Origin: Mesorhizobium sp. PAMC28654
Lineage (GTDB): Bacteria; Pseudomonadota; Alphaproteobacteria; Rhizobiales; Rhizobiaceae
Assembly: GCF_020616515.1 (NCBI RefSeq)
Contig: NZ_CP085135.1
Location: 372,001-436,000 of the forward strand
Reading direction: 5' to 3'
DNA length: 64,000 nt
Below are positions 4,719 to 58,634 of the stretch, one piece after another. A model generated the notes under the pieces. The model saw nothing but the letters and a program-made list of their open reading frames with translations. It was not told where the DNA came from and searched no databases. Numbering within the stretch: the stretch's first letter is position 1; each line of letters begins with the position of its first letter. Position numbers and translations under genes: made by a program.

Positions 4719-5162
4719 GGCAATCGCCCGATTATCCAGCGAAGCCGACAGGGTTACGAATTTACCTTAATCCAAGCGATTCGCGAGCCGTGGTTAAGAA
4801 ACTGTTGATTTTCATCAGTTCTTGGGCGAGTGTGCTGGTAGACAAAGATGGCCGGCGCGAGGATAGATTGCCGGTCAATCCCTAGAATACCCCATGTCTC
4901 AGGTCCGCCGCATCTCCTGGGTCCGTGGGGTCGGCCGGCCGGCGCTGGCACATAGTGGCCTCCTCGTACCGCTGCCAAACGCCGACCGGCCCCCTTTTTC
5001 CAAAACACATCAGGATTCCATGCCAGGCCTTTGAAAAGGCTGGCGGTTGACGGGGCGTCTCTCGAAGCTCGCCGTCGCGTCGCGGCGATCGTCCGTCATG
5101 CCTGCCGCTCAGCTCTCGGCTCACGATTTCCGGCGAAAGCAGTTATCGCTCCTGACATTCGG
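4719..5162. other. Intergenic stretch, no gene recognised
   Basis: About 440 bases between pleD and the regulator promoter. Short open frames here have neither a ribosome-binding site nor protein-like composition. In related genomes rpmG often follows pleD, but here rpmG lies about 8 kb away. Confidence 0.5.
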
Positions 5163-41357: not shown

Positions 41358-41543
41358 ATGGCAGATTTTCGAAAAATTCGTCTGCGTGCCGCAAAACGCA
41401 AGGGCGGTGAGGGCGAACTGGCGTCACTGCTGGGGCCGGCGCCCGACAATGCGGCCGTGGCCGGCATCGCGGATGACCGCATTCTCTCGACCATGGCTGA
41501 GCGCGTCTTTGCCGCCGGATTCGTGTGGCGGGTCATCGACTAA
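41358..41543 (+). pseudogene. DNA-3-methyladenine glycosylase I, 5' part (cut by island)
   Basis: Codes for MADFRKIRLRAAKRKGGEGE through VFAAGFVWRVID and then a stop. This is the N-terminal 57 residues of the alphaproteobacterial 3-methyladenine glycosylase I family (pattern R-A-x-x-RKGG, ADDRxLSxMxxxVFxAGFxWxVI). The remaining 180 residues are found at 58092-58634. Joining at CGG (41529 or 58092) restores an uninterrupted 237-aa frame. As it stands it makes only a 61-aa fragment. Confidence 0.85.
41529..41533. other. attL core (CGGGT)
   Basis: Left junction, inside the codons for WRV of the glycosylase. Sequence to its left is glycosylase gene; sequence to its right (CATCGACTAAACG) belongs to the element. 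A 5-bp core is in the short range expected for serine integrases. The precise exchange dinucleotide cannot be told apart inside the core. Confidence 0.65.
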
Positions 41544-41615
41544 ACGTTTGGACATAAGGGAAACCCTTGCATCCGTGAGGCACGTTCCTATATGTGCCCG
41601 AGCGGAGCTAACCTC

Positions 41616-43487: not shown

Positions 43488-43587
43488 TGCGAGCGAACTC
43501 GATGGTGAATGCACCCCGACGCCGTGACAACCGAGACGCCAAAGCGTTCAGCAATCTGACTTTGCCAGGCGAACGCCATGGAACGTC

Positions 43588-44169
43588 TCAAAGACTGTAA
43601 GCGCCACAATCCTCGAACGCTGTTGAAAAGCGTTGGTTAAAGGCTCTACCACGCCAACCGGGATCTTCACCGGCTCGTATTTTCTTCGAGGTCTCTTGTT
43701 CCCAACCGCCATCCGGGAATTTAGACCAGACGCAATCACAAAAATGGGTCAGTTGATCGCTTGTTGGGTTGGATTTTTCTCCAAGTGTGAATTCGGGAAG
43801 GGGCTGCTTACATGTAAAAGAAAGATGGTCGGCGGCAGCGGTTTGAACCGTGTATGATTTGAACATTTCCAAAGCATAGCCGGCGGGAAAAAAAGCCAGG
43901 ATTAGGCCGATGAAGGCAGCCCACGAAAAAGCATGAGGACTACCTTGCGCACTGCCGGTGACCGCCTTGGTGATACCAGCCGCAATGAGTGCCAGACCGC
44001 CGCCGATGATGATGGATGCTGCAAACATTCCGACGACAATCAGCACGATGTGTGCCCAAATCGGGACCGATATTGGACTCCGAGAAAACCAGTTGTAATA
44101 AGCAAGGCCGACAAACCACCCGAAAATCACCATCCCTGATGCTTTGCCATTGATTTGATCGACGGTCAT
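43588..44169 (-). CDS. Membrane protein of unknown function
   Basis: Encodes 193 aa. Three hydrophobic helices occupy the N-terminal 110 residues (MVIFGWFVGLAYYNWF, HIVLIVVGMFAASIIIGGG, AAFIGLILAFFPAGYALEM). A soluble C-terminal domain of about 80 residues follows, with four cysteines (FTCKQ, HFCDCV, EDCGA) that could bind metal or form disulfides. ATG at 44169 has GGGGGAAG just upstream. No family recognised. It diverges from the ClpP-like gene. Confidence 0.6.
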   Translation of the reverse strand: MTVDQINGKASGMVIFGWFVGLAYYNWFSRSPISVPIWAHIVLIVVGMFAASIIIGGGLALIAAGITKAVTGSAQGSPHAFSWAAFIGLILAFFPAGYALEMFKSYTVQTAAADHLSFTCKQPLPEFTLGEKSNPTSDQLTHFCDCVWSKFPDGGWEQETSKKIRAGEDPGWRGRAFNQRFSTAFEDCGAYSL

Positions 44170-44366
44170 AAGCTTCCCCCCTTTTATGCACAGCTATGTC
44201 TAAGTGCCAGATCGGTGGTTTGGAAGAGGCAATCATTGGGACAAATGGATTTATCAATGCTGCTGGCCGCCATGGTTAGCTGCTCGATCTTTAAATCCTG
44301 TGTCCGTTGTCTTGCCCTAAACTACGGCTCTGGCAGAATGCAAAGCCTCATGGGTGGGAGGGTAAA

Positions 44367-45287
44367 GTGGGCAGATTGTTGTGGTTAGTTGCGGCAACGC
44401 TGTTGGCGGGGCATGCCAGTGCGGCGGTCATCCAAAAAAGACCCCAAGCGTTGGGTTCGCCGGACTTGATCACGGTTACCGGGATCATAGAGCCCAACGA
44501 CGATCTCCAGTTCAGTCAAATCGCTGCGACGACCGGGCAAGCAATTGTTCTGCTCGATAGCGAGGGCGGATCGGTATTGCCGGCGCTGGAAATAGGTCGG
44601 GCTATTAGGCTGAAGGGTTTCGCTACCGCTGTGGCAAGCGAAACCCTTTGTGCCTCCGCATGTGCATTGACTTGGCTCGCTGGCTCGCCACGGCTGGCGG
44701 GCGAGCAAGCCAAACTTGGCTTCCATGCATCCTATATCGTCAACAATGGCGTTGCCAGCGAAACGGGTGTCGGGAACGCTTTGATCGGGGCGTATCTCAA
44801 CCAAATCGGGCTTTCGCAGAATGCAATCGTTTTCGTCACTTCTGCGCCGCCTGAAGGGATGGCTTGGCTGTCATGGGATAAGGCCAGGGAACTCGGCCTA
44901 CAGGTAGGTTCGTATCAAGCGAACGTTATGTCTCCGGGCACTGGAGACGGGCAAACGGCACCCGAGCCGTACGATCCAATGAAGGCAGCCGCTGCGTTCT
45001 ACAATGCCTTGTCCAACGCCGATGGGGTTTCGGCTGCGGCCCTCGTGGTTCCTGAAAAACGAGGCATCGGCCCGTTCAACGAGGCTTCTATCCATTCATT
45101 TTTCGGTGGGCTTTCCGTTCCGCTGCAACTCGAATCCATTGCACGGCGTGGCGTCGACAAGGTCGCTGTCTCGTATACATATTCCAGATCCGATGGCTCC
45201 GTCTGTGCAGGTAAGGCGGAGGTCCAGACCATCTACAAATACGGCAAGACCCTGATTGGCAAAATACGAGCCCTTAGCGGGTGCTAG
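44367..45287 (+). CDS. Secreted ClpP/crotonase-like protease-fold protein
   Basis: Encodes 306 aa. GTG at 44367 is chosen since GGGAGG lies 5 bases upstream and the first residues form a signal peptide (MGRLLWLVAATLLAGHASA). The body has the COG3904 periplasmic Clp-like pattern: IVLLDSEGGSVLPALEIGRA, the Ser-containing turn SETLCASACALTWLAGSPR, and LGFHASYIVNNG with the His at the catalytic position. A C-terminal region of about 110 residues has two Cys. The stop codon lies inside the left copy of a 30-bp inverted repeat. Confidence 0.72.
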   Translation: MGRLLWLVAATLLAGHASAAVIQKRPQALGSPDLITVTGIIEPNDDLQFSQIAATTGQAIVLLDSEGGSVLPALEIGRAIRLKGFATAVASETLCASACALTWLAGSPRLAGEQAKLGFHASYIVNNGVASETGVGNALIGAYLNQIGLSQNAIVFVTSAPPEGMAWLSWDKARELGLQVGSYQANVMSPGTGDGQTAPEPYDPMKAAAAFYNALSNADGVSAAALVVPEKRGIGPFNEASIHSFFGGLSVPLQLESIARRGVDKVAVSYTYSRSDGSVCAGKAEVQTIYKYGKTLIGKIRALSGC

Positions 45288-45313
45288 TGGTGAAAACCTA
45301 ACGCTTGATACCC
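45284..45313. repeat. 30-bp inverted repeat, left copy
   Basis: Begins CTAGTGGTGAAAACCTAACG and ends CTTGATACCC. It is a perfect reverse complement of 46162-46191. It includes the TAG stop of the ClpP-like gene. The two copies bracket a single gene, like terminal inverted repeats of a small element or sites for inversion. Confidence 0.9.
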
Positions 45314-45389
45314 GCTGATACGACCGCAATGGGTAGAAAGCGGCCATTCGGGCAGGTGACAGATAGCGGTGGCACGGTCCAAGTCGTCG

Positions 45390-46154
45390 TCACCTGGCCG
45401 ATGTTGTAGAAACCGGCGGCGCTAGATCTGCACCACAAACCTGCGACTGCAGATACTCGACATGAGCTGCCAGCAATGATGGCCAATTTGCCCAGTCGAT
45501 ACCGCTGACCCAAGCGCAAGCTGCTTCATGCCCGTGAACTTGTCGCAGCAGGCAGAAGTAAGCATGGTCTCGCCATGAACCACATAACTGCTCATTGCCG
45601 CTCATCACCTCCATCGCCGAACGCCATGTGAACCACCTCTTGATCCATTCGCCAACCCTGCCGTCGAGATCATCGACGCACTGGGCTATGAAGGCATCAA
45701 GATCACTTTCGTTTGCGACCCAAAAGGGACCACGACCTCCGACAAAGTTTCCGTCGATGCCATCAAAAGATACTCTAAGAAATTGTTTGTTCAGCCGTCG
45801 AGAACTTTGAGTTTTGAACTGCGCCGAACTTGGATCTTTGAGTTCATACCAAGCGTCGAAATCCTTGTATGATTTGGCGAATTTCTTCCACTTGAACACA
45901 ACTACAAGGGCGCAATCATAATCTCCGTACCGGCGGTCCGCATAGCAGTCGAACTCGATGTCGAAGTCCGTCTGATTGTCCGCAGATGCCACCACAAGCT
46001 TGGTGCTGTCCGGCTTAAACCATTTCGCCCCAAGGCGGGTATGGAGTTCTCCTGCCACTTTCATTCGGATTGTTTTTGAATCCAACATACTGAGCAAAGC
46101 CTTCTCTGCGGTTAGTGTAACTGAACTCAGCGGGTATGGGTCGTTTCCTGCCAT
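45390..46154 (-). CDS. Unknown protein inside the inverted-repeat unit
   Basis: Encodes 254 aa, with ATG 46154 only 8 bases inside the right inverted repeat. It is a soluble, Trp/Phe/Asp-rich protein (FDIEFDCYADRRYGDYDCALVV, FKWKKFAKSYKDFDAWYEL, RVGEWIKRWFTWRSAMEV in parts). No known domain or transposase signature was recognised. It fills nearly all of the 908-base unit, so it is either cargo or the protein that moves the unit. Confidence 0.6.
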   Translation of the reverse strand: MAGNDPYPLSSVTLTAEKALLSMLDSKTIRMKVAGELHTRLGAKWFKPDSTKLVVASADNQTDFDIEFDCYADRRYGDYDCALVVVFKWKKFAKSYKDFDAWYELKDPSSAQFKTQSSRRLNKQFLRVSFDGIDGNFVGGRGPFWVANESDLDAFIAQCVDDLDGRVGEWIKRWFTWRSAMEVMSGNEQLCGSWRDHAYFCLLRQVHGHEAACAWVSGIDWANWPSLLAAHVEYLQSQVCGADLAPPVSTTSAR

Positions 46155-46161
46155 TCCCTGT

Positions 46162-46191
46162 GGGTATCAAGCGTTAGGTTTTCACCACTAG
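46162..46191. repeat. 30-bp inverted repeat, right copy
   Basis: Begins GGGTATCAAGCGTTAGGTTT and ends TCACCACTAG. It is the perfect partner of 45284-45313. GATACGAC follows immediately outside this copy and also occurs just inside the left copy (45317-45324), which may reflect past recombination. Confidence 0.9.
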
Positions 46192-46280
46192 GATACGACG
46201 GGACGAAATCTGTTGCCATTTTTAAATGCCGTCGAAGCCTGCTGTCGTGGCTCTCCCTCGATCCAACAGATTTCCCTCAG

Positions 46281-47210
46281 TGTCTGACCCAAAAAGAAGT
46301 TGGGTGATATCAATGACTTGTGATTCAATCGGAGTTGCGAAGCCTCGACGGAGCATCACATGTGGACTGATATCACCCGCGCCAAGCATGCCCGAAAGGG
46401 ACTACGTTATTCAAGCGATTTGACGGACGCGGAATGGATGGTTCTGGAACCGCTGCTTCCGCCTCGCTCGGCGCTTGGCCGCCCGCCGAAATGGTCGCAG
46501 CGGTCTATCATGGAGGGCGTGTTTTATGTGCTGCGTAGCGGTCTGCCTTGGCGAATGCTGCCCAGGGACTTGCCGCCGGTATCGACGGTGCAGCGCTATT
46601 TCTACGCTTGGCGCGACAGCGGCCTTTGGAACACGATCAACCACCTGCTGCTGATGGCCGTGCGTGTCGCCGCAGGTCGGGAGGCGTCGCCCAGCGCCGG
46701 CGTAATCGACAGCCAAAGCGTGAAAACCACTGAAAGCGGCGGGCTTTGTGGCTACGATGCGGGCAAGAAGATCAAAGGCCGAAAGCGCCATATCCTGACC
46801 GACACCTTGGGCCTGCTGGTCGGCGCGATCGTCCATACCGCTGACATCCAGGACCGAGACGGCGCCCCCGAGGTTCTGGCTTCTATTCGGGAAAGCTTTC
46901 CCTGGCTGCGCCACGTCTTCGCCGATGGCGGCTACGCCGGTGAAAAACTCCAGACCGCGCTCAGGGGAAAAGGTGGCTGGACCCTCGAAATCATCAAGCG
47001 ATCCGACGCCGCAAAAGGCTTCGTCCTGCTCCCGCGCCGGTGGGTGGTGGAACGAACCTTCGCCTGGTTCGGCCGCAACCGACGCCTGTCCAAGGACTTC
47101 GAGCAGACCATCGAAAGCTCCACGGCTTGGCTGCTCCTCGCATCCGTTCAACTCATGACACGGCGCATCGCAAATCCATGATATCCATCAGAAATATTAT
47201 GAGTCAGACT
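46281..47210 (+). mobile_element. IS5-family insertion sequence
   Basis: A 930-bp element. The ends are imperfect inverted repeats (TGTCTGACCCAAAAAG at the left; the right end reversed reads AGTCTGACTCATAATA). CTCAG occurs directly outside both ends (46276-46280 and 47211-47215), a likely target duplication. One transposase gene fills it. Confidence 0.8.
46360..47181 (+). CDS. IS5-family transposase
   Basis: Encodes 273 aa. An N-terminal DUF4096-like region (LTDAEWMVLEPLLPP, RSIMEGVFYVLRSGLPWRML) is followed by a DDE domain with Asp in GVIDSQSVKT, Asp in FADGGYAG, and Glu in RWVVERTFAWFGRNRRLSKD. Full length and uninterrupted, so potentially active. Confidence 0.93.
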   Translation: MWTDITRAKHARKGLRYSSDLTDAEWMVLEPLLPPRSALGRPPKWSQRSIMEGVFYVLRSGLPWRMLPRDLPPVSTVQRYFYAWRDSGLWNTINHLLLMAVRVAAGREASPSAGVIDSQSVKTTESGGLCGYDAGKKIKGRKRHILTDTLGLLVGAIVHTADIQDRDGAPEVLASIRESFPWLRHVFADGGYAGEKLQTALRGKGGWTLEIIKRSDAAKGFVLLPRRWVVERTFAWFGRNRRLSKDFEQTIESSTAWLLLASVQLMTRRIANP

Positions 47211-47240
47211 CTCAGGAATTCGGGCCGAAGGCACGAACCG

Positions 47241-47453
47241 CTAATTTAATTGGTCACAACGTCTGCCATTTATGGCCTCGATATTAAACCGCCGCCCTTT
47301 ATCCCCACTTTGCACAAGTAATCCTGCAACGTTTTCGCTGCACTCTCTATATTGAACGTATTTCCTTCTTGGGACTCGTTCGTCCAATGGGTAAAAATGT
47401 TTTGGATAGGGCATTATTCGATTCAGATATCTTTCTAAAAGTATGCGAAGCAA
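47241..47453 (-). pseudogene. Fragment of an unknown gene
   Basis: An open frame of about 70 codons with protein-like composition (YPKHFYPLDERVPRRKYVQY) beside the IS5 copy. Its frame continues upstream for about 24 more codons without a start. A separate short frame beginning ATG near 47549 (MKSIGILSEAKLPKATN), with TATAAT overlapping its start codon, ends just before it in another frame. Together they could be one roughly 100-aa gene broken by a frameshift. Family unknown. Confidence 0.3.
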
Positions 47454-48337
47454 TGAGCCTTTGAAAAAGGCGAAATCGGTTGTTGCACATTCAATTGGTT
47501 GCCTTCGGCAATTTCGCTTCGCTCAATATTCCAATTGATTTCATTATAACCTATCAACACAAGAATCTAATGATGCACTGGTTGAAGGATACACTTTTCC
47601 CTGCCATTAGAATCGGTTTTCCAAAAAAGTGCTGGAAAGACCAATCCCAAAGTGGAAGGGGAAAAGTGTAATCCTGATACCTATGCACTATGGCCATCAG
47701 ATACGTTCTATAAGGCGAACCCCGTTTTATGGGTAAGGAAAGGTCGTCCGTTTTTTCCTTGTGCCCGACTTTCGGCGGAACTTCATGAAATCGATAGAAC
47801 CCGGATCATGAAGTTTGTAGGCGACGAATTTTCACGCTCCTACTCTTGCGAATTTTCTTATAGACAGCTTTTTCCGCTTGGCTGTTCCAAAGCATTGCGG
47901 ATGCTCTGGTTTCCGTATTACCCATTTTTAAAAGTTCGATCTCAGCGGCATATTCGCAACGTGGTCACTACTCGATTGCACGTGTCCGGAACCAACCGGG
48001 ATGGCGATGGGGCTTTAATCGTCAAACTCGCAAATTCATAATCTCTGTTCTAATATGTATCCGTCGAGCTCAATCCAAATTTCAAAACATCGATCACGAA
48101 TTGTTACATTCGTAAAAAGGCGTGATCTGGTGTAATTACGGGTGGTTTAGGCTAAAGCGTTGAAAAATGCATTGGCGCTCTGGCTTATTAAGTCAGCTTT
48201 CTCAACTCTGTGTATCGAGATATTTTCGAATTGCTTGTCGAGCAATACATGAAACGGAAACGCCAGACGTTTCGGAAAGCCGGATCAATCGGAGATGGTC
48301 ACCCGGAAGCAGTGTTGCTGAAAGCCTTTTGTTTGAG
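47454..48337. other. AT-rich region, no convincing gene
   Basis: About 880 bases of low-GC DNA inside the island. A plus-strand frame at 47652-48041 starts with GTG and has no clear ribosome site or family resemblance. I do not call it. The region looks like eroded accessory DNA. Confidence 0.5.
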
Positions 48338-48590
48338 TTAGCCAACATCATCGTCTTCCAATTCGATTTGTTCGGAATCGTGAGCCTGCTCTAATAGCAT
48401 ACATATCAGAGGATGCTCGCTTTGTTCGCCGTAAATTTCTAATGTTGAAGTCATGTGGTCGAAAATGTTGGATTTGACGAGGCGATATGATCCGAGGCTG
48501 GACTTTATTTTTGGAGTCTTCAATATTGATAGTCCCGTTAATTAGATGCTGTACCGAATGTGATACAGAGGTATTTATAATTTTGAGCAT
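48338..48590 (-). pseudogene. Small acidic protein gene, apparently frameshifted
   Basis: ATG 48590 has GAGG 4 bases upstream and opens MLKIINTSVSHSVQHLINGT. Around 48520 the coding character moves to another frame, which continues KTPKIKSSLGSYRLVKSNIF, DHMTSTLEIYGEQSEHPLIC, MLLEQAHDSEQIELEDDDVG to the stop at 48338. The joined product would be about 84 aa with an acidic tail. Family unknown. Confidence 0.4.
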
Positions 48591-48631
48591 TTTGCCTCAT
48601 ATTGAGGCGCTGTCGGATCGTGGAACTCCTA

Positions 48632-48844
48632 TTACAGCCTATTAAATGCATCCATGGCAGACTCATGATGCTGACAAACAAACAGTCTCGACGGCGGGAC
48701 GGGCAGGTTTAGCGCTCTCCTAGCAGGATCATATTCACTCGGAACAACGGGATGCCCACGATCTTCTGGATGTGAGCAGCGAGTTCCCAATTCCATCGCC
48801 AGCAACTGAGCCAAATGCCGGAAATCGCCGCAATCCAGCTTCAT
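48632..48844 (-). CDS. Small protein of unknown function
   Basis: Encodes 70 aa (MKLDCGDFRHLAQLLAMELG, then CSHPEDRGHPVVPSEYDPAR). An earlier ATG at 48863 overlaps the upstream gene's stop in ATGA fashion and would add MNAEHV, but in another frame. So either the start is 48844 or a small frameshift separates the true start from the body. Last of three tightly packed small genes. Confidence 0.45.
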   Translation of the reverse strand: MKLDCGDFRHLAQLLAMELGTRCSHPEDRGHPVVPSEYDPARRALNLPVPPSRLFVCQHHESAMDAFNRL

Positions 48845-48859
48845 TGACGTGCTCGGCGT

Positions 48860-49039
48860 TCATTGCGATTTCGCTGTCGAGTCGAGCTTTGCTGCCGCCT
48901 TGCGTTCCTCGCTGGCGAGATATTTGTGGAACGAGTCCTCCAGATGGTCAAATCGCTCGACCCCATCCCTTTGGTCGAGTTCAGCCAGTGTGAATCCGGG
49001 GATTGCCTTTCTTTTCGCCTTGGTCGATTTGCTGTTCAA
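48860..49039 (-). CDS. Small charged protein, TTG start
   Basis: Encodes 59 aa. The start TTG overlaps the stop of the preceding gene as TTGA, implying translational coupling. The sequence (STKAKRKAIPGFTLAELDQR, then DGVERFDHLEDSFHKYLASE) is highly charged and helical. Its own stop overlaps an ATG of the next frame. No family recognised. Confidence 0.5.
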   Translation of the reverse strand: MNSKSTKAKRKAIPGFTLAELDQRDGVERFDHLEDSFHKYLASEERKAAAKLDSTAKSQ

Positions 49040-49224
49040 TTGGCCTTCGATCCAGATTGCTGATTGTCCATTATGTCCGATATGACCCTGCGTACCGTGG
49101 ATCGGCTTAACCCGGCTGCGGCTGCAATTTGGTACGGGCTTTTTGCCGCCAAATGCATTTCGATTATGCGAAATGTCTTTGTCTGGGTCTTTGGACGACG
49201 ATACATCAGTCGATTTTGGGGCAT
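49036..49224 (-). CDS. Small helix-turn-helix protein
   Basis: Encodes 62 aa. ATG 49224 follows a GGGAGAGG ribosome site. The sequence RIIEMHLAAKSPYQIAAAAG followed by LSRSTVRRVI is a compact helix-turn-helix, like resolvase or transposase DNA-binding tails. It lies 22 bases after the resolvase gene and heads the three-gene mini cluster. It may be a regulator or recombination accessory. Confidence 0.6.
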   Translation of the reverse strand: MPQNRLMYRRPKTQTKTFRIIEMHLAAKSPYQIAAAAGLSRSTVRRVISDIMDNQQSGSKAN

Positions 49225-49246
49225 TAGGTACCTCTCCCGGTGATTG

Positions 49247-49801
49247 TTAGGCGGCTTCTGCCAAAATTCGATAGACCGATGATCGACCAATGCCCAGCTC
49301 GTTGGCGATGTCGACTGGCTTCTTGCCTGCCTGATGCATAGACACTACGACAGATGACTTGCGCCGAGCGGTTGGGGCTCTCCCTTTGAACTTGTGCTCC
49401 GCTTTGGCCTTGGCGATGCCTTCCCGCTGACGAGCAAGCATAATTTCACGCTCGAACTGCGCTATCGATCCGACGAGGTTCATAAGAAGTCTGCCCGTGG
49501 GCGATGTCGTATCAATCGACATGTCGAGGATTTTCAATCCAACCTGCTTGGCTTCGAGCCGGGCAACAATCTGGCCCAGGTCCGCAACCGAGCGGGCGAG
49601 ACGATCCAATCGGGTGACAACGAGAACATCGTTCTCTCGCACAAAATCAATTGCCCGATCCAGCTCCGGGCGGTTGGAATTAACGGAAGAAACCTGTTCG
49701 CTGAAAACCTTTTCGCATCCCTGCGATTTCAAATCCCGAAGTTGCGCTTCGTAACCGGCCTTTTGCTCGATGGTGCTTGTCCTGCAGTAGCCCACGAACA
49801 T
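49247..49801 (-). CDS. Small serine resolvase/invertase
   Basis: Encodes 184 aa. The catalytic domain starts MFVGYCRTSTIEQKAGYEAQ (the nucleophile is a Ser in RTST) and includes VTRLDRLARSVADL. The long E helix is present, and the C-terminal helix-turn-helix reads GKKPVDIANELGIGRSSVYRIL. It is a Tn3-resolvase/Hin-type recombinase. No matching transposase gene is found nearby, so it may act on sites in the island. Confidence 0.9.
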   Translation of the reverse strand: MFVGYCRTSTIEQKAGYEAQLRDLKSQGCEKVFSEQVSSVNSNRPELDRAIDFVRENDVLVVTRLDRLARSVADLGQIVARLEAKQVGLKILDMSIDTTSPTGRLLMNLVGSIAQFEREIMLARQREGIAKAKAEHKFKGRAPTARRKSSVVVSMHQAGKKPVDIANELGIGRSSVYRILAEAA

Positions 49802-49832
49802 GCCATATCCTTTCCCAATAGCCTCTTAGAGA

Positions 49833-49881
49833 TTGTGGGACAGAATTCCTAAAATGTCAATGGAACTCTTGTGGGACAGAA
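49833..49881. repeat. Direct repeats upstream of the resolvase (res-like)
   Basis: TTGTGGGACAGAA occurs at 49833-49845 and again at 49869-49881, 36 bases apart. Beyond the IS3 element the inverted form TTTCCCACAAGAG appears at about 51138. Repeats just upstream of a resolvase gene are the usual layout of a res recombination site, here split by the IS3 insertion. Confidence 0.5.
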
Positions 49882-49931
49882 ACGAACGGATATGGTCTGG
49901 ACTTGCTTCGGTAAAGTGGAGAGCGGGTTGC

Positions 49932-50792
49932 TCATTCGGCGGCGTTTCGCTCGAACTGCATCGGGCTGATGTAGTCGAGCGCGGAATGCCGCCGGATGGG
50001 ATTGTAGAAGCCGTCGATATATCGGGCAATGGCGGCTTGGGCATCGGCGCGGGTAAGGAAAGAGGTGCGCCAGATCAGTTCAGTTTTCAGCGTCTTGAAG
50101 AATGTTTCGACCATGGCGTTATCAAAGCAATTGCCCTTGCCTGACATTGAGATGATGACGCCGGCGGCACGCAATTCGGCTTGGTAGTCGATAGAACAAT
50201 ATTGGCTGCCGCGGTCGGAGTGGTGAATGAGGCCGGGTTCCGGCTGCCGCATGACGAACGCCTTGTTGAGCGCTGCCAGAGCCAGGCTGCGGTGTAGCCG
50301 GTTGCCAGCAGCCCAGCCAACGACCTTGCGGGCAAACAGATCGATGACGACAGCAAGGTACAACCAGCCCTCCCGCGTCCAGATGTAGGAGATGTCGGCA
50401 CCCCATTTCTGGTTGGGACCAGTGGCGGCAAAATCCTGGTCGATGACATTGGGGGCAACCGGAAAGGCGTGTTCGCTGTCCGTCGTGCGCTTGAACCGCC
50501 GCTTCTGTCTTGCCTGGAGGCCATTCTCCCGCATCAGACGCGCCGTTCGTCGCCGGCCAATGGCAAAGCCATTGTCTTGCAGTTCCCGCGTCATGCGCGG
50601 GCTACCATAGGTTCCGTTCGACAGCGCGAACGACGATCGCACATGCGCCAGCATTATCATGTCGTCGCGCTGCCGGCGGCACGCCGGCCGGCGCCCCCAG
50701 GCAAAGTAGCCGCTCGGGCTGACACCCAGCGTCGCGCACAAACGGTCCACAGGGAAATCCTTCTTCGCCTGGTCGATGAGCGCGAACCTCAC
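49932..50792 (-). CDS. IS3-family transposase OrfB
   Basis: Encodes 286 aa, with an HTH_21 region (YGSPRMTRELQDNGFAIGRR) and an integrase core whose DDE residues are in WGADISYIW, LIHHSDRGSQY and NAMVETFFKTLKTE. Normally made as an OrfAB fusion by -1 frameshifting across the 4-base overlap with orfA. Intact. Confidence 0.94.
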   Translation of the reverse strand: MRFALIDQAKKDFPVDRLCATLGVSPSGYFAWGRRPACRRQRDDMIMLAHVRSSFALSNGTYGSPRMTRELQDNGFAIGRRRTARLMRENGLQARQKRRFKRTTDSEHAFPVAPNVIDQDFAATGPNQKWGADISYIWTREGWLYLAVVIDLFARKVVGWAAGNRLHRSLALAALNKAFVMRQPEPGLIHHSDRGSQYCSIDYQAELRAAGVIISMSGKGNCFDNAMVETFFKTLKTELIWRTSFLTRADAQAAIARYIDGFYNPIRRHSALDYISPMQFERNAAE

Positions 50793-51082
50793 CGACTTCC
50801 CTCCTTGACGAAAAAAGCCGTCGCCCGTTTCAAGATATCCCGCTCCTGCCGAAGGATTTCATTCTCCCGCCGCAGCCGTTTCAATTCAGCGGCGACATCA
50901 GCATCAGGCGGACGCCCAGGATCGCCCATCTCACGATCCAGCTGCCGACCCATCCATCGCGTCAGCGTCGAGAAACCAACACCAAGATCCTCCGCGATCT
51001 GCCGCTTCGTCCGACCGCTCGTTCGCACAAGGCCAACCGCCTCCGCCTTGAACGCATCCGTAAACTGTCTCTGTTTCGTCAT
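50789..51082 (-). CDS. IS3-family transposase OrfA
   Basis: Encodes 97 aa. The N-terminal helix-turn-helix (FKAEAVGLVRTSGRTKRQIA, EDLGVGFSTLTRWM) is followed by a leucine-zipper-like coiled coil (AAELKRLRRENEILRQERDI). It binds the IS ends and is fused to OrfB by frameshift. Confidence 0.93.
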   Translation of the reverse strand: MTKQRQFTDAFKAEAVGLVRTSGRTKRQIAEDLGVGFSTLTRWMGRQLDREMGDPGRPPDADVAAELKRLRRENEILRQERDILKRATAFFVKEGSR

Positions 51083-51166
51083 CGAGGTCGCCTTTCATCA
51101 GAAGGAAACTCTCCACTTTTTCGGGGCAAGTCCAGTCTTTCCCACAAGAGCAGGGGCTATTGGTTC

Positions 51167-52171
51167 ATGGGGGCGGATTTGGACAGCGCAAAATCGCAAA
51201 GCGATGAAGGTGCCCTCCGGAAGCTCTTTCTGGGTCCCTTGCTGGAACGCTACAGCCTTCTAAAGAATAATGACCTCATTACACTCGCTCACTATACGTC
51301 TGCAAAAGTTCTCCTTGATATGCTGGAAAAGAAAGAAGTGTGGATGAGAAACGCCAGATGCATGAATGATTTTAGCGAAATCGACTATGCGAAGTGGTGT
51401 ATTCAGGAGTATTTTAGAGACGAAAAGCGGCGAGACGCATTTCGATTAGCTTGCGAGAATTGTCATGAAGGTGCCTTTGATTTCGTCAGCAAGCTATTGG
51501 ATGGACATTTACCGGCCATTTATAACAGAACTTACATTTCATGCCTTGCCCAACACGACATTGAAGACGATGCAAACGGACGCTTGTCTATGTGGAGAGG
51601 GTACGGCGGTGCAGACGTAGCCGTTTCGATTGTCCTTCGAAAAGCGGCGGTCATAAGGGATGGGTCTGGGCCCTATGGCATTCAAGGGTATCCGGTGCAG
51701 TATCCAAAAATGGATGGGCTTTTTGAGGATCTAAATAGAAGACGGGATATCATGGTTGAAAATAAGGAGGAGATATCCAGCGGAAGTTTCGAATATTTTA
51801 GAAATCATCTATTCGGAATGTTCCAAGTTTTATTGGCTACAATAAAGCATCCGGGGTTTTCGGAAGAGAACGAGTGGAGGCTAATTTACCTTCCTGATTT
51901 GAACCCGTCTAAAGATATGGAGAAGACCAAGGTGCAGATTGCTTTGAATGGAATGCCGCAATCTATATACAAGATTCCAGTCAATGGAGAGAAGTTCAAT
52001 GATGACCGGGCGGTTACTGTCGATGAGCTTATCCAAGGCATTATTGTCGGCCCGTGCGCAGAAGCCGGCGTCGCAATTGCCGCTATTCAAGATGCATTGA
52101 TGCGAGCAAATCATCGATCCGCTCAAAAGATCGTTCACTTTTGCGGAATCCCATATCGAGAACGCCTATAG
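51167..52171 (+). CDS. DUF2971 family protein
   Basis: Encodes 334 aa. The typical DUF2971 beginning is present: LAHYTSAKVLLDMLEKKEVW followed by MRNARCMNDFSEIDY. The mid-motif is ISCLAQHDIEDDANGRLSMW then RGYGG. EENEWRLIYLP and IVGPCAE follow. DUF2971 proteins are of unknown biochemistry but are frequent in defence islands and abortive-infection loci. It is the first of a plus-strand cluster with the UDG-like and reverse transcriptase genes. An IS3 copy sits 32 bases upstream and probably displaced or supplies its promoter. Confidence 0.82.
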   Translation: MGADLDSAKSQSDEGALRKLFLGPLLERYSLLKNNDLITLAHYTSAKVLLDMLEKKEVWMRNARCMNDFSEIDYAKWCIQEYFRDEKRRDAFRLACENCHEGAFDFVSKLLDGHLPAIYNRTYISCLAQHDIEDDANGRLSMWRGYGGADVAVSIVLRKAAVIRDGSGPYGIQGYPVQYPKMDGLFEDLNRRRDIMVENKEEISSGSFEYFRNHLFGMFQVLLATIKHPGFSEENEWRLIYLPDLNPSKDMEKTKVQIALNGMPQSIYKIPVNGEKFNDDRAVTVDELIQGIIVGPCAEAGVAIAAIQDALMRANHRSAQKIVHFCGIPYRERL

Positions 52172-52245
52172 CTGCGTCACCAGAATATGGCCCCAATGGC
52201 ACCTGATGGCCTCCATTGAACTAACTGTTTGCGCCGGGAGATTGG

Positions 52246-53059
52246 ATGATAATGAACCCGCAAAGCCAGTTCAATCCCGAGCTGATGGGAGGAATGCAGG
52301 TTGGTCTGGGATGTTCTAAACGCAAGAATACTGGAGATATGGCAAGAGCACATTCCGCCAAACGAGGAGGGGGCGCTCGCACCTCTTTTTTATCCGGATC
52401 GTGGCAAGTCAGATTTGCTGTTTGTGGGATTCAATCCATCATTCAGTGAGAAGGAAGCGGCAAAGCGAGCTTTGGGTATCGACGTATCGGAGTTTTACAA
52501 GTGGAAAGGTTTTCAAGGCGAACGTTTACCGCAAATGGCAGAGATTCAAGGTCGTTTTATGAAGGATCTTTATTACTTCAAGCCAATGCAACTCGTTGCT
52601 CAAGAGGTGAAAATGGCTTGGGCTCATCTTGATATTTATCCTGTTCGGAAAACTAATCAGAAGAAGACGCTAAGTTATCTAAAAGGGAAAACCCGATTGA
52701 AGGATAGCCTTGAAAGTCTGTTCGAGACGACAATCCGCAGGTTGCAACCCGAAATTATCATAGTTGCGAACGCCTATGCGTCCCAGTGCGTTAAGCGGCT
52801 TTTTGACGGCCATCTTCCCTTCGACGAAAAGGTTGGGTTTCATCGTCTGCAAATAGAAGGAACATGTGCAGCAGTCTTTTTCAGTAGCATGCTGTCGGGG
52901 CAACGTGCTCTTGATACCGGTTCGTTTGAGCGTCTTCGTTGGCACGTGCGAAAGGCCGCCGAAACTTTGAAGCCAACAAAGGAGGACCGGAGTAGGCACA
53001 TGAGCTGGGAAGCGGGGAACGGTGGAATTTCACTAGGACGTTCAGGTCAAGGCTTATGA
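52246..53059 (+). CDS. Uracil-DNA-glycosylase-like protein (possible frameshift near start)
   Basis: About 252-270 aa. A UDG-fold is suggested by SDLLFVGFNPSFSE (like motif A G-[IM]-N-P of TDG/SMUG enzymes), ARLQP-type PEIIIVANAYASQCV, and a C-terminal FFSSMLSGQRALD segment at the place of the leucine-loop motif. The best ribosome site (GGGAG) precedes ATG 52246, but that frame runs into the body frame only if two bases are missing near 52295. Otherwise translation must begin at TTG 52301. It lies between DUF2971 and the reverse transcriptase. It could be a DNA or nucleic-acid glycosylase; the assignment is by motif only. Confidence 0.55.
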
Positions 53060-53269
53060 CGCTTACAAGGGATAGAATTGGCGCTGTTCCCAGTTGAAAA
53101 TTGGGGTGGTGTTCGACCACAAACCTGCAGTTGGCTAATCGAGTTAGTGCCGGGGTAGACGCAATGGGGTAGGGTGGGGAACCTCACGTTGGGAGGGACA
53201 TCATTCATCGGCTTGAGCGATTTGGTTTTATGACCTACGTCTAGTGATGCGCTGGGGGGACGAAAAAAG
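53060..53269 (+). other. 210-base noncoding leader of the reverse transcriptase gene
   Basis: No protein-like frame. A hairpin GTGGT-GTTCG-ACCAC lies at about 53107-53121, and G-rich tracts occur at 53165-53180. Several defence reverse transcriptases need a noncoding RNA encoded just upstream. This is the place such an RNA would be, but sequence alone does not prove one. Confidence 0.35.
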
Positions 53270-54808
53270 ATGGGCACCGGGAAGAGACCATCAACCCCGT
53301 GGCGTCGCAATATTGCCGATGCACGGGCTTTCTTTCTAAACGACTATGGGCAGACGCTCTTCCCGTTAAAAACCAATCGATTTCTGGCGGAATTTGGCTT
53401 CGACCAATTGCGGGACTTCGGGCTCTCTGCCGCAGAAGCCGTTGAAAAAGCGGCCTTTCTGCCGCAGCGAAACGTGTCAGCGCTAAAGGCAGGTTGGCAC
53501 CAGAGAAGAACGGTGAAGTTGGACCCGGTCGCAGAGGCTTTTATCTACGATTTCATGTTCCGAAATCGAGGTTTGATAAGAGGTGCCATCTCAACTGAGC
53601 GAGAGTGCTACGGCTATACATTTAGAGAGGGCGCACCGCTGAGCCCCACTTTCTCCTACAGGGGCTTCAAAGGCGCAAAAAGCGAGTATTCAGCTAAGTT
53701 TGAGCATAGTCTATCGTTTGATATTTCCTCCTATTTCAACTCCATTTATCATCATGATTTGCCGGAATGGGCTGAAGATCGGGGGTTTTCTGGAGATGAT
53801 GTTGTTCTCCTTGGACGATTTTTGCGAGAAATCAAGTCTGGCCGAAGCATTGATTGCCTTCCGCAAGGCCTGTATCCTACAAAAATGATCGGTAACGATT
53901 TTTTGAAATTCATTGATAATTCGGTTCGTCTAAAATCACCAAAGTTAATCAGGTTTATGGACGACATAGTCATTTTCTCTGATAATAAGTCTGACTTGCT
54001 CTCCGATTTCTACTTGATTCAGGACTTACTTGGACAACGGGGATTGTCTATTAATTCTGCAAAGACGAAAACTTCGGAGGAAGAGCAGGATGTCGCCGTT
54101 ACCGTTGACGATGTTAAAAGAGGCCTGCTCAGGAAGAGGCGCTCGGTGATTTCAAAGGGCTATTCACAAGATGACGACGACGACGAAAAGGAAACGCTTG
54201 GAGTCGTTCGTAATCTGACGGGCAAAGAGGTTGCCCGTCTACAAGAAATGTTGAAGGAACCACATCTGGAGGAGGAAGATGCAGAGTTAATACTTACGCT
54301 TATGGGCGAGCATTCGTCTGACGTATTGGCGAGATTTGATGATCTTTTGGGGGATTTTCCGAATCTATCGAAAAGCCTTTATAGTTTCTGCAAACATATA
54401 TCGGATCGGGAATATTTGGCTGAGGCTGTTTTAGGTTTTTTGAATAAAGCCGCATTTGTTCCAGAATTTCAATTGTTTTGGATCGCCATGATTTTAGACG
54501 ATTATCTATTAAGAACAAAAAAGGCGGGCGCAATCATAGCCAAACTGATTGTGCACCCGCAGTCGACCCCCATTACTGTTGCGAAGTTACTGGAGATTCC
54601 AACTTCGAATTTTGGGCTGCCCGAGCTACGGACTGAACACCTGCGGGAAGGCAAGTCAGATTGGCTTGCATGGTCAGCGGCTGTGGGTTCCCGGGCTGCA
54701 CCGAAAGGGGCCAGAAATCAGATGCTAAAATACTACAGACACGGATCGCCGATGAATTCGGTGATCGCCGATATCGTATCGTCTTATGATGCCAGCGTGT
54801 TTGATTAA
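53270..54808 (+). CDS. Abi/UG-type (defence-associated) reverse transcriptase
   Basis: Encodes 512 aa. Palm motifs: SLSFDISSYFNSIYH with D151 (motif A), CLPQGLYPTKMIGNDFLKFI (motif B, LPQG at 197-200), RFMDDIVIFSD with D231-D232 (motif C), and GLSINSAKTK (motif D region). So it keeps all catalytic Asp. There is no maturase X or endonuclease domain of group II introns. Instead about 250 residues of alpha-helical repeats follow (LLGDFPNLSKSLYSFCKHIS, IAMILDDYLLRTKKAGAIIA), the mark of Abi/UG defence enzymes. The exact subgroup is not assigned. Low GC relative to host. Confidence 0.85.
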   Translation: MGTGKRPSTPWRRNIADARAFFLNDYGQTLFPLKTNRFLAEFGFDQLRDFGLSAAEAVEKAAFLPQRNVSALKAGWHQRRTVKLDPVAEAFIYDFMFRNRGLIRGAISTERECYGYTFREGAPLSPTFSYRGFKGAKSEYSAKFEHSLSFDISSYFNSIYHHDLPEWAEDRGFSGDDVVLLGRFLREIKSGRSIDCLPQGLYPTKMIGNDFLKFIDNSVRLKSPKLIRFMDDIVIFSDNKSDLLSDFYLIQDLLGQRGLSINSAKTKTSEEEQDVAVTVDDVKRGLLRKRRSVISKGYSQDDDDDEKETLGVVRNLTGKEVARLQEMLKEPHLEEEDAELILTLMGEHSSDVLARFDDLLGDFPNLSKSLYSFCKHISDREYLAEAVLGFLNKAAFVPEFQLFWIAMILDDYLLRTKKAGAIIAKLIVHPQSTPITVAKLLEIPTSNFGLPELRTEHLREGKSDWLAWSAAVGSRAAPKGARNQMLKYYRHGSPMNSVIADIVSSYDASVFD

Positions 54809-54832
54809 GCTGAGCGAGGGAAGGGTACAGCA

Positions 54833-55051
54833 GTGAATGCCATTTCTGCACTGATCGGGATCCTGGCGCTCATTGCGGCGCTTGTTGCGTTCATACCACT
54901 TGTAGGATGGTTGAATTGGCTCGTGATACCCGTGGCGGTGATTGGTCTCGTATTGGGGCTGTTTTCTAAAAATACGACGGGCCGAAACATCAATATCGTT
55001 GTCCTTCTTGTCTCGATGTTTCGGCTTTTCGTCGGAGGCGGGCTTCTATAG
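54833..55051 (+). CDS. Small three-helix membrane protein
   Basis: Encodes 72 aa, GTG start 24 bases after the reverse transcriptase stop with a GAGGGAAGGG site. Almost entirely hydrophobic: ALIGILALIAALVAFIPLVG, WLVIPVAVIGLVLGLFSK, and INIVVLLVSMFRLFVGGGLL. Tiny membrane proteins are common effectors in abortive-infection systems, but similar ones are also widespread housekeeping proteins. Cotranscription with the reverse transcriptase is likely from spacing. Confidence 0.65.
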   Translation: MNAISALIGILALIAALVAFIPLVGWLNWLVIPVAVIGLVLGLFSKNTTGRNINIVVLLVSMFRLFVGGGLL

Positions 55052-55077
55052 CTGGATGCCTGAACAGGAGGTCGCTT

Positions 55078-55548
55078 GTGTTCCTAAGAATGCTAATGTC
55101 TGCATCAATAGCTGTTGCAAGTTTGCCTTCGCCGGTGGCTGCTGATGAGATGAGGGGTTTCGTAACGCTCAAGGGAAAATGCGAGAGGCTGATAGTTTCC
55201 GGGAGGAACTTTTCGGTAGATTGTAATGGTCTAATTATGCAATCAATATACCGGTCTGGACGGACTGGTTTTACCGTAACTGTCGGTGACAAGGGAGTTG
55301 CGGTGACGTTCAGCGGAATGGAAGGTGTGAAGCCGGATGAAAATTCCCAGCTGCAAACTGTCGACCATCTTATATTTAATCTAGGTATCAAAGGCGTTGA
55401 GCCGTCGACTGAGAAAATACAGGGAAGTTGTTCTTACAGTAATCCGAACTTAGGTCCCACGAATATAAACTGTCAGGCGATTGACAAAAAAAGGAATGGG
55501 TACCTTCTTGAGTTTAGAACAGATGGGTCAGCTCCTACCTACAATTAA
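55078..55548 (+). CDS. Secreted protein of unknown function
   Basis: Encodes 156 aa. GTG 55078 follows a strong AGGAGGT site 5 bases upstream. Signal peptide LRMLMSASIAVASLPSPVAA; the mature part is beta-rich with four Cys (GKCERL, VDCNG, GSCSYS, INCQA) that may form two disulfides. No known domain. Confidence 0.6.
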   Translation: MFLRMLMSASIAVASLPSPVAADEMRGFVTLKGKCERLIVSGRNFSVDCNGLIMQSIYRSGRTGFTVTVGDKGVAVTFSGMEGVKPDENSQLQTVDHLIFNLGIKGVEPSTEKIQGSCSYSNPNLGPTNINCQAIDKKRNGYLLEFRTDGSAPTYN

Positions 55549-55645
55549 ATTTACGTGCCGGTAGAGGCCGAGAGCCGTGTCAAGGGCTATTCGCTGCTAG
55601 TCGGACTGGGGCCTAGGACGACCTGTCGTGGAGGGCCTCGCCCTA

Positions 55646-55987
55646 TCATGCCGAACGGGTTCTTTTTGCCAAAGCCTTTAGCTGTTCAATAGCAACATTC
55701 AAATCCCGGTCACTGAGTCCCGAGAGTATCAAGCCGGCTTGAATTTCAAGCGTCGCCCGTTGCTCAGATTGCGCCATATCGCCCTCCTGAAAGAAAACCC
55801 TTACAGGGACATCAAGCGCTCTGCCAAGACGCACAAGTGTCTCGAAATTTGGCCAATTCAGTCCTCTTTCCCATTGGGAGACGGAGTCAACAGACCTATC
55901 CGTCCGGAGCGCCAAATCGTCCTGCGTGAGCTCTCGCAACTTGCGGAGTTCCCTTAGAATCGTACCGAAGTTTTTGGTCGCTAACAT
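55646..55987 (-). CDS. Xre-family transcriptional regulator
   Basis: Encodes 113 aa from ATG 55987; a start 7 codons earlier is also possible. The N-terminal helix-turn-helix is classic: FGTILRELRKLRELTQDDLA then LRTDRSVDSVSQWERGLNWP. The C-terminus is a short helical region. It may regulate island genes; it is divergent from the next secreted-protein gene. Confidence 0.85.
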   Translation of the reverse strand: MLATKNFGTILRELRKLRELTQDDLALRTDRSVDSVSQWERGLNWPNFETLVRLGRALDVPVRVFFQEGDMAQSEQRATLEIQAGLILSGLSDRDLNVAIEQLKALAKRTRSA

Positions 55988-56143
55988 AGCGCAGCATTGC
56001 GCTGCCATCCTCTAGCCGTGAACCGAACAATGTCCGTCTAAAGCGTCATAAATCCGTAATAAATTACGGTTTCCTCATTGAGCAGCCGCCCCCACTCGGC
56101 TATGGAATTGGGCGTCAAGGCTGCACGAGAGACGGAGGCAAAA

Positions 56144-56641
56144 ATGGCGTTGTTGAATTTCACGACCAAAATAGTGCTGGCGGTATCTTTGGTCAGCATC
56201 GGTACGTTGTCTTTTGCGGCCGATGGCGACCATACCTCTTGGCGGGGCACCTTCTTGGGGCAGAGCAGGGGGGATGTGGTAAAAGCTCTTGAGGGAAAAC
56301 TTGTGACGACAGAAGATGATTTTGCAGGTGATCCGCAAATACAAGCTATCGGAAAATCACATGAACGGTGTGGAACATTTGATCTTAGGAATGATATTGT
56401 TGTTAGAATGAATTTGAATCCATGCTTCTTCGATATATATGATAATATATCTGACAGAGATTTTGCAAAAATACTTTTGAACCATTACGATATTTCCTCT
56501 TTTGAGCCTGAGCCGACGCAAATGAGTGGTGTATCTATAGTCTACAAAGGGAATACAACCCACGGGGAATCGCTGACAGTATTTGAGCAGATTGGGACAA
56601 TTTCTGTTACCGTTGAGCCTGAACCGAAAGGTGAGTTTTGA
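56144..56641 (+). CDS. Secreted protein of unknown function
   Basis: Encodes 165 aa. ATG 56144 has GGAGG 6 bases upstream and starts a signal peptide (ALLNFTTKIVLAVSLVSIGTL then SFA). The mature part has GTFLGQSRGDVVKALEGKLV and two Cys (ERCGTF, NPCFFD). AT-rich coding in the second half is unlike the host chromosome. Function unknown. Confidence 0.6.
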   Translation: MALLNFTTKIVLAVSLVSIGTLSFAADGDHTSWRGTFLGQSRGDVVKALEGKLVTTEDDFAGDPQIQAIGKSHERCGTFDLRNDIVVRMNLNPCFFDIYDNISDRDFAKILLNHYDISSFEPEPTQMSGVSIVYKGNTTHGESLTVFEQIGTISVTVEPEPKGEF

Positions 56642-56785
56642 AAGGGGGCAACACCAACGGCTTCTTATGTGTAATTGCAAAGTGGGGCGTCAAGATACAC
56701 TAGGAAAATTAGGTGCGTAGCCAACCATCAAACTGGCGAATGATCGGAGTGCGCCTGCTTTGCGCTAACGCACTCCCAATGGTTT

Positions 56786-57628
56786 TCATAGGCCAAACAA
56801 AAATTGCTTGTTCAAGCCCTGAATCTCCGAATCAATCTTGGCCAAGTTATCTATATCTGGCCAGTCTTTCCCTGAATTGGAGTCGTTCCATGCCTTCATG
56901 AGATATTTGCAAAGTACGCCGTCATTGTATCGTCCCGGCGAAGATGCAAAATATTCATAAAGTCTGTTGAACGGGTTTCCTTCCGGCTCTTTCGAATTTC
57001 CAATCAGGGCCTGAAAAACTTTCTGGACGCCTTCCTCTGCATCGCTTTGCCCCTGTGACAGTTGTTGAAGGGCATAGCAAAATGCGACGGTAAATCGTGC
57101 GGGAAAATCCGTCTCTCTCCAGAAATCTCTAATGGCGGATTCGATATCTGGATGGGCATTCAGAATGTCTGAGATCTTTGAGCTTCCAAGCGTTACGCTT
57201 GAATGCTCGCCGCACAGGAAAGCTACGAGGCGTGCAACTTGCACGCACTTGTTGGGTTTGCTGAAGCCGGCGATAGTCGCCATATGCGCTGGAGTTCTTC
57301 GAACGCCCACATCCACGTGACTTGCTTTTGTATCGTCTTCGTCACGAACAATCCAGAAATACTGGGATCGTCCGGAACGTTCAATTGCTTTGAGTCTGTG
57401 CTGTCCGTCAATTACGCAACTCGTGGACGAGAGCAGACGTATCGTATTGTTTGATACGATGGAAGAATCCCACCTTCCCTCCTTCATATCGGCTGCATAG
57501 AGCCGAACGGCATTGCGATTTATCTGGCGCTTGTTGCCTGGAATTGAAAGAAGCTGTTTTGCTCGCTCCGGTGATATGAGTTCCTGTTCGAACTTTTCGA
57601 TTTCAGGTTTGATCATTTCGTTTTGCAT
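56786..57628 (-). CDS. ParB/Srx-like DGQHR-type protein
   Basis: Encodes 280 aa from ATG 57628. The central motif SCVIDGQHRLKAIERSG is the ParB/sulfiredoxin-fold nucleotide-binding signature. It is preceded by KRQINRNAVRLYAADMKEGR, typical of phage and island ParB-like proteins, and followed by a helical C-terminal half. There is no partner parA, so a role in partition is unlikely. Related proteins act in DNA modification or defence. It is the last gene before the right junction. Confidence 0.72.
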   Translation of the reverse strand: MQNEMIKPEIEKFEQELISPERAKQLLSIPGNKRQINRNAVRLYAADMKEGRWDSSIVSNNTIRLLSSTSCVIDGQHRLKAIERSGRSQYFWIVRDEDDTKASHVDVGVRRTPAHMATIAGFSKPNKCVQVARLVAFLCGEHSSVTLGSSKISDILNAHPDIESAIRDFWRETDFPARFTVAFCYALQQLSQGQSDAEEGVQKVFQALIGNSKEPEGNPFNRLYEYFASSPGRYNDGVLCKYLMKAWNDSNSGKDWPDIDNLAKIDSEIQGLNKQFLFGL

Positions 57629-58091
57629 TTTACTGTGCCCTTGTTTGCATCGCTTGTTTGCGATGTTTGGGCATTTAGAGAAGCGGCTCGGGCGTTTCAA
57701 CCCCATCAGAAATGTATAGTTCGTCTACATGATTCTATAATCAAAAAAAGATTGTTTGAATTTCTATTAATCGCTACGGGAATGTTTTTATGATGCGAGG
57801 TCAAAACAAGGGATTGTTCGTTTCTATTCAAGGATTGTTATTTTCTATATGTCGGAAGTCGGCATGTATAGGAATATATTCTTTCCTCAATCGTGGCCGC
57901 AGCTTGCGCTTCAAACCGAGAATGCGCCACCGGACGTTGCCCACAAGCAGGCGTTTCATGACAATCGGTTTAATCAAGAAGCCGGGCGACAGGTCGGAAT
58001 CCGTTCGAATGATGACCGCCATGTTGGCCTTTCGGCGCTCGCTGGATTGCGTCGGAAACCAATGAATGCATGATGTTCAATTGACTGTTGT
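57629..58091. other. AT-rich region to the right island end; repeated motif, no gene
   Basis: It contains three copies of a GATTGTT-N2/3-TTTCTAT motif at 57750-57768, 57811-57828 and 57832-57848. They are upstream of the divergent ParB-like gene and near the right junction, so they could be operator or recombination accessory sites. No convincing open frame. Confidence 0.5.
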
Positions 58092-58096
58092 CGGGT
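58092..58096. other. attR core (CGGGT)
   Basis: Right junction. Element sequence TTGACTGTTGT lies to its left and glycosylase sequence (TATTGAGCAG) to its right. Excision by recombination with 41529-41533 would remove 16,563 bp and rebuild the gene. Confidence 0.65.
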
Positions 58097-58634
58097 TATT
58101 GAGCAGAAATGGCCTGGCTTCGAGGAAGCGTTTCTAGGCTTCGAGCCGAAGCGTTTGTTGTTCCAGCCCGATGATTTCTGGCACGATCTGACCGCCGACA
58201 AGCGCATCGTGCGCAATCCGCAGAAGATCAAATCCGTTCGTGATAACGCTGCCTTCGTCGAGCGTGTGTCGAAGGAGCATGGCGGATTTGGCAAGTTCCT
58301 TGCGCAATGGCCGGCTGATGATCAGGTCGGGCTGATGGCCTATCTGGGCAAGCATGGCAGCCGCCTCGGCGGCAATACCGGCCAGTATTTTCTGCGCTGG
58401 CTGAACTGGGACGCCTTTCTCATTTCAGGCGATATGTCGGCCGCGCTGCGCGACGCCGGTCTCGACATCGCCGAAAGCCCGACGTCGAAGAAGGACCTTG
58501 ACAAGATCCAGGCCCAGGTCGACGTCTGGGCAGCGGAAACCGGCCTGTCGCGCCGGCATATTTCGCGGATCCTGGCGATGTCGATCGGCGAGAACCATTC
58601 GCCGGAATCGCTGCGCGAATATATGGGCGAGTAG
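58092..58634 (+). pseudogene. DNA-3-methyladenine glycosylase I, 3' part (cut by island)
   Basis: Begins at the attR core CGGGT (58092-58096) and continues VIEQKWPGFEEAFLGFEPKR, LLFQPDDFWHDLTADKRIVR, FLRWLNWDAFLISGDMSAAL to ARNP-type C-terminus ISRILAMSIGENHSPESLRE. It codes for the 180 C-terminal residues, including most of the helix-hairpin-helix-type catalytic region. The frame is exactly that of the 5' part at 41358-41528. No good start of its own, so probably silent unless the island excises. Confidence 0.85.

Follow-up and report, generated by a model that had tools for sequence, protein, structure and literature searches.

The four genes at positions 51167–55051 of the window (the whole 64-kb stretch of DNA analyzed here) are, on balance, best read as stacked anti-phage cargo of an integrated element with a serine integrase, and not as one four-gene system. 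Drt5, a reverse transcriptase (RT), would defend by protein-primed, template-free DNA synthesis, by analogy with what is published for other DRT5 proteins. Its DUF2971 neighbor would be an ADP-ribosyltransferase-like, NAD-using protein that possibly modifies DNA as DarT does, and would work with Drt5 as an effector or a regulated toxin. A protein resembling uracil-DNA glycosylases (UDGs) would act separately and in a Brig-like manner, flipping out and removing a modified base from invading phage DNA and leaving abasic sites in it, while a 72-aa membrane protein would be a passenger. The boundaries of the element, the identity of Drt5, the UDG fold of a predicted structure and a second DUF2971–Drt5 adjacency come directly from the analysis; the activity of each protein is inferred.

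The host is a soil bacterium. An earlier note on this DNA described four plus-strand open reading frames (ORFs) in a row, and these are indeed present within 3.9 kb: the DUF2971 protein (51167–52171, 334 aa), with a possible ADP-ribosyltransferase fold; the UDG-superfamily protein (52301–53059, 252 aa, TTG start); Drt5 (53270–54808, 512 aa); and the small membrane protein (54833–55051, 72 aa, GTG start). Successive genes are separated by 129, 210 and 24 bp, which makes the last pair the only closely spaced one. Another plus-strand ORF (55078–55548, 156 aa) begins 26 bp past the membrane-protein gene; its start looks like a signal peptide by eye, and it matches no Pfam family above cut-off. Scans for promoters and terminators gave fewer hits than shuffled sequences did.

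The cluster lies in a low-GC island, as the earlier note had said (GC drops from about 0.60 to 0.46–0.50 across 51–58 kb), and the island is truly an integrated mobile element. Flank alignments showed an empty site, without the element, in 19/19 compared relatives from the genus (L124–L142). In a draw of 61 genus genomes, the right flank was matched in 60, own genome included, in some cases over only a few dozen bases; the 19 are the best of the other 59. All 19 relatives match the left flank as far as 41539, where the right flank joins directly, starting at 58089 in 18 of them and at 58101 in L132. Since the flanks are contiguous at 41539/58089 in relatives, the element spans about 41540–58088, or approximately 16.55 kb. 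Its ends bear a 14-base imperfect, attachment-like repeat, located in the overlap of the flank alignments at 41526–41539 on the left and 58089–58102 on the right (both plus strand; 11 of 14 bases are the same by eye).

Just inside the left end is a large serine recombinase (41592–43487, plus strand) with the Pfam Resolvase and Recombinase domains and a match of 219 bits to the integrase family PHROG 95, which is likely the integrase of the element. On the other side, positions 58155–58634 of the right flank match Adenine_glyco in Pfam with 25.0 bits, exactly at the cut-off of 25, and three of the empty sites can be read through in frame across the junction by eye. The element therefore seems to split a host gene resembling methyladenine-DNA glycosylases, at 41539 and 58089–58634. 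Toward its right end, the element encodes at 56786–57706 a protein that matches PHROG 5931, a family of unknown function, with 94 bits.

Between the integrase and the cluster are a small serine resolvase (49247–49801, minus strand; Pfam Resolvase, 137 bits) and an IS3-type insertion sequence (49897–51134, minus strand), typed by its gene content (Pfam rve and HTH_Tnp_1). The insertion sequence stops about 32 bp short of the start codon of DUF2971. Counting this copy, the genome contains at least 40 of full length (40 of the 135 candidates were scored). The resolvase is related to that of a Drt5 locus in Mesorhizobium Root552 (L031), with which positions 49142–49879 share 70% DNA identity.

The RT scores 617.4 bits against NCBIfam NF041750, for which the curated equivalog cut-off is 550, and 641 bits against the PADLOC Drt5 model. 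The catalytic aspartates that the earlier note had pointed out (D151, D231 and D232) are shared by all 22 Drt5 proteins in an alignment that includes this one. From these scores and residues, the RT is assigned to Drt5, a named class of antiviral RTs; the earlier description as a defense RT is thus supported, while an RT class without a name is not. In work on purified DRT5S and DRT5L, the DNA is reported to be made covalently attached to protein without an added template (PMC13275509). According to an overview from 2026, no mechanism dedicated to DRT5 has yet been established (PMC13213688), and a recurring partner of Drt5 would therefore be of help. Free space next to the Root552 Drt5 gene amounts to 94 bp upstream and 2 bp downstream, which leaves little room for a template RNA. 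In the window, Rfam at gathering thresholds yielded no template-RNA candidate for Drt5; its only match was the small RNA Atu_C6/EcpR1 at 4887–4996 (100 bits). A phage collection gave no Drt5 or UDG-like match, and a set of viral contigs contained three Drt5 loci and no UDG-like locus.

The earlier note had proposed that the genes form one system, with the DUF2971 and UDG-like proteins modifying or checking the DNA that Drt5 makes and the membrane protein causing cell death. It is consistent with this idea that the four genes share one strand, 3.9 kb and one element, and that the three large proteins all resemble enzymes acting on nucleic acids. However, conserved co-occurrence did not materialize in the loci examined. 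The survey of Drt5 neighbors comprised 65 distinct loci, the window and 64 others, 38 of which have more than 3 kb on both sides. They derive from 67 entries, in which the window (L001) appears twice and L002 is identical to L033; L092, L093 and the loci of other RTs (L003–L030) scored under the limit and are not part of the counts. The UDG-like gene was found in 0/64 other Drt5 loci and DUF2971 in 1/64, that of Root552; neither was found in four further Drt5 loci that were scanned (L109 and L113–L115). The gaps of 129 and 210 bp, the relatives of the membrane protein (described below) and a by-eye comparison of contigs also speak against one system, in that the listed relatives of the UDG-like protein and of Drt5 have only the window's own contig in common. 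The set of genes was thus not found together in the examined relatives; the co-occurrence counts are the reason that a four-gene system was rejected as the leading reading, and it is now considered improbable.

Other Drt5 loci have other neighbors. In the Rhodobacterales loci L041, L042, L043 and L078, Drt5 (at position 4772 in L043 and around 8001 in the other three) directly follows a SIR2 and HerA pair, recognized by PADLOC in L041 (292 and 487 bits, respectively) and by similarity in the rest. The plasmid locus L113 carries an annotated SIR2 family protein and ATP-binding proteins. L053, L054 and L090 have, next to Drt5, a protein that combines a HerA-like ATPase domain with an N-terminus judged hydrophobic by eye; it lies upstream of Drt5 in L053 and downstream of it in the other two. 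Of these three loci, the PADLOC searches covered L053 and L054.

The DUF2971 assignment in the earlier note was borne out (PF11185, 28.4 bits against a Pfam gathering cut-off of 22), and the gene adjoins the RT in one other genome as well. The Root552 DUF2971 protein is 57% identical to that of the window. There, a resolvase is followed by Drt5, an oppositely oriented DUF2971 gene and a tyrosine integrase, compared with resolvase, IS3-type element, DUF2971, UDG-like gene and Drt5 in the window. The DNA just before the Root552 Drt5 gene resembles both flanks of the insertion sequence before the window's DUF2971 gene (the left by BLAST, the right by eye). Among 144 genomes of the genus, DUF2971 was found in four (E up to 1e-20): the close pair of the window's own genome and Root552, and two distant relatives (32%), whose genomes gave no Drt5 match at E up to 1e-30. 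By-eye comparison of contigs found those of length 61,936 (Root552), 5,171, 3,492 and 1,854 in both the DUF2971 and the Drt5 lists, and contigs of 58,279 and 1,473 in both the UDG-like and the DUF2971 lists; since the contig of 1,854 is too short for DUF2971 and Drt5 together, chance collisions do occur in this comparison.

These observations point weakly to a link between DUF2971 and Drt5, since there are only two such loci, in one Drt5 clade, and both have a related resolvase; the other six members of the clade are known as proteins only. When labels were shuffled, the same single change arose in 41 of 500 cases. An alternative is that a cargo hotspot accumulated three unrelated defense genes by chance and that DUF2971 has no functional link to Drt5. 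The small number of loci and the shared resolvase fit such a pile-up, as do the differences in gene order and orientation between the window and Root552 and the different neighbors at other Drt5 loci, such as HerA in 7/67 entries. However, of the 144 genus genomes, only the window's own and Root552 have a close DUF2971, and in both it stands beside Drt5, in an adjacency that outlasts a rearrangement. A chance pile-up is accordingly held to be somewhat unlikely, and stacked cargo in which DUF2971 works with Drt5 is preferred.

The DUF2971 protein has a possible ADP-ribosyltransferase fold, as judged from structural matches to DarT and Tpt1, for which Foldseek was not significant. In an alignment of 38 sequences, own included, the motifs H-Y-T and E-x-E-W-R are near-invariant, and the candidate residues H42, R144, Y146, E236 and R238 are kept in 36–38 of the 38, as placed by alignment. 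The catalytic residues of DarT are given in a review as R51, Y71, H119 and E160. A sequence profile of DUF2971 returned no row from the PDB, and Pfam searches with the 38 members gave weak matches to AbiGi in two (best E 0.013) and SLATT_4 in three (best E 0.018). A literature search turned up one paper naming DUF2971 and nothing linking it to defense or ADP-ribosyl. At 8205–10100 of L121, another DUF2971 gene precedes one whose product matches a TIR effector with 44.6 bits.

For the UDG-like protein, the structure was predicted with a pLDDT of 88.9, and in each of two structural searches, 50 of the 50 matches listed belong to the UDG superfamily, the best being family 4, SMUG, UdgX and TDG enzymes. 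The predicted structure thus supports the UDG fold that the earlier note had suspected. In sequence searches, a profile of the family gave ten rows from the PDB, none of them glycosylases (best E 0.002), and Pfam found UDG (PF03167) in one of 30 members (E 0.07). The GFNPS motif noted earlier is present and corresponds to motif 1, G-x-N-P, with G43, N45 and P46 each kept in 79/80 sequences, own included. The consensus of motif 2 in TDG and SMUG enzymes is HPSP. No such motif with a histidine is found in the alignment of the family, which has S/T-S-M-L-S-G-Q-R there (SSMLSGQR). In the same 80 sequences, H109-x-D111 is kept as H in 67 and D in all 80, and E50 is E in 46.

It might be supposed that this protein is an ordinary repair enzyme, removing uracil or a damaged base and carried along with the element, as the fold and its best structural matches would allow. 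This is considered very improbable, since SSMLSGQR replaces the motif-2 histidine and the gene was found only in its own genome in overlapping draws of 394, 146 and 397 genomes; relatives are present in Mesorhizobium B2-6-1 and M0924 (63% and 57%). A distant relative also adjoins a restriction–modification pair on the conjugative Runella plasmid L112 (5929–6699), where the pair consists of a cytosine methyltransferase and a restriction enzyme of the MvaI/BcnI type. A separate, Brig-like role remains our preferred reading. The target base would likely be a cytosine derivative, since the presumed base-reading position is an aspartate; the UNG mutant N204D is reported to acquire cytosine excision (PMC11289083).

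Sliding hydropathy shows two hydrophobic stretches in the 72-aa protein, one covering its first half and the other close to the C-terminus. Among 215 genomes of the class, five gave a match, its own being one of them and two being weak; in another draw, of 61 genomes, its own was the only one. Around its two clear relatives, L149 and L150, the roughly 1.5 kb examined on either side contains neither Drt5 nor a DUF2971 or UDG-like gene. With no sign of Drt5 specificity among these, the protein is best treated as a passenger, and not as the dedicated effector that it was earlier taken to be.

The locus offers two testable assignments: a possible ADP-ribosyltransferase beside a defense RT for the uncharacterized Pfam family DUF2971, and a putative glycosylase for modified cytosine, distinct from the Brig proteins named so far, for a UDG-superfamily branch in which the position that may read the base in UDGs is an invariant aspartate. 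A more daring, and quite unlikely, idea is that the locus is a new variant of DRT5, in which Drt5-made DNA would be the substrate or trigger of a DarT-like DUF2971 protein while a Brig-like glycosylase removes modified phage bases. If so, DNA bases would be written, tagged and unmade by three enzymes on one element, and DUF2971 would be a broad, unrecognized family of ADP-ribosyltransferase effectors.

Among known systems, DRT5 is the closest, as the window RT passes the curated Drt5 cut-off and retains the catalytic residues; however, the published text on DRT5, as far as available, concerns the RT, whereas the window has DUF2971 and a UDG-like gene just upstream. DUF2971 differs from DarT and Tpt1 in lacking a sequence match to them, and its structural match is not significant in Foldseek. 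The UDG-like protein is set apart from family 4, SMUG, UdgX and TDG enzymes by its identity of only 9–15% and by the near-invariant block MLxGQRALD in place of the motif-2 histidine. With Brig1, Brig2 and Brig3, it shares the UDG superfamily and a mobile defense setting; in contrast to them, it adjoins an RT, and its E50 is not invariant. In Brig3, N50 and D127 are reported to be required for defense while H125 stacks the base (PMC13160076). E55 of Brig3 stands five residues after N50, as E50 does after N45, and N45-P-S and H109-x-D111 would correspond, judged by residue order, to N50-P-S and H125-x-D127 of Brig3.
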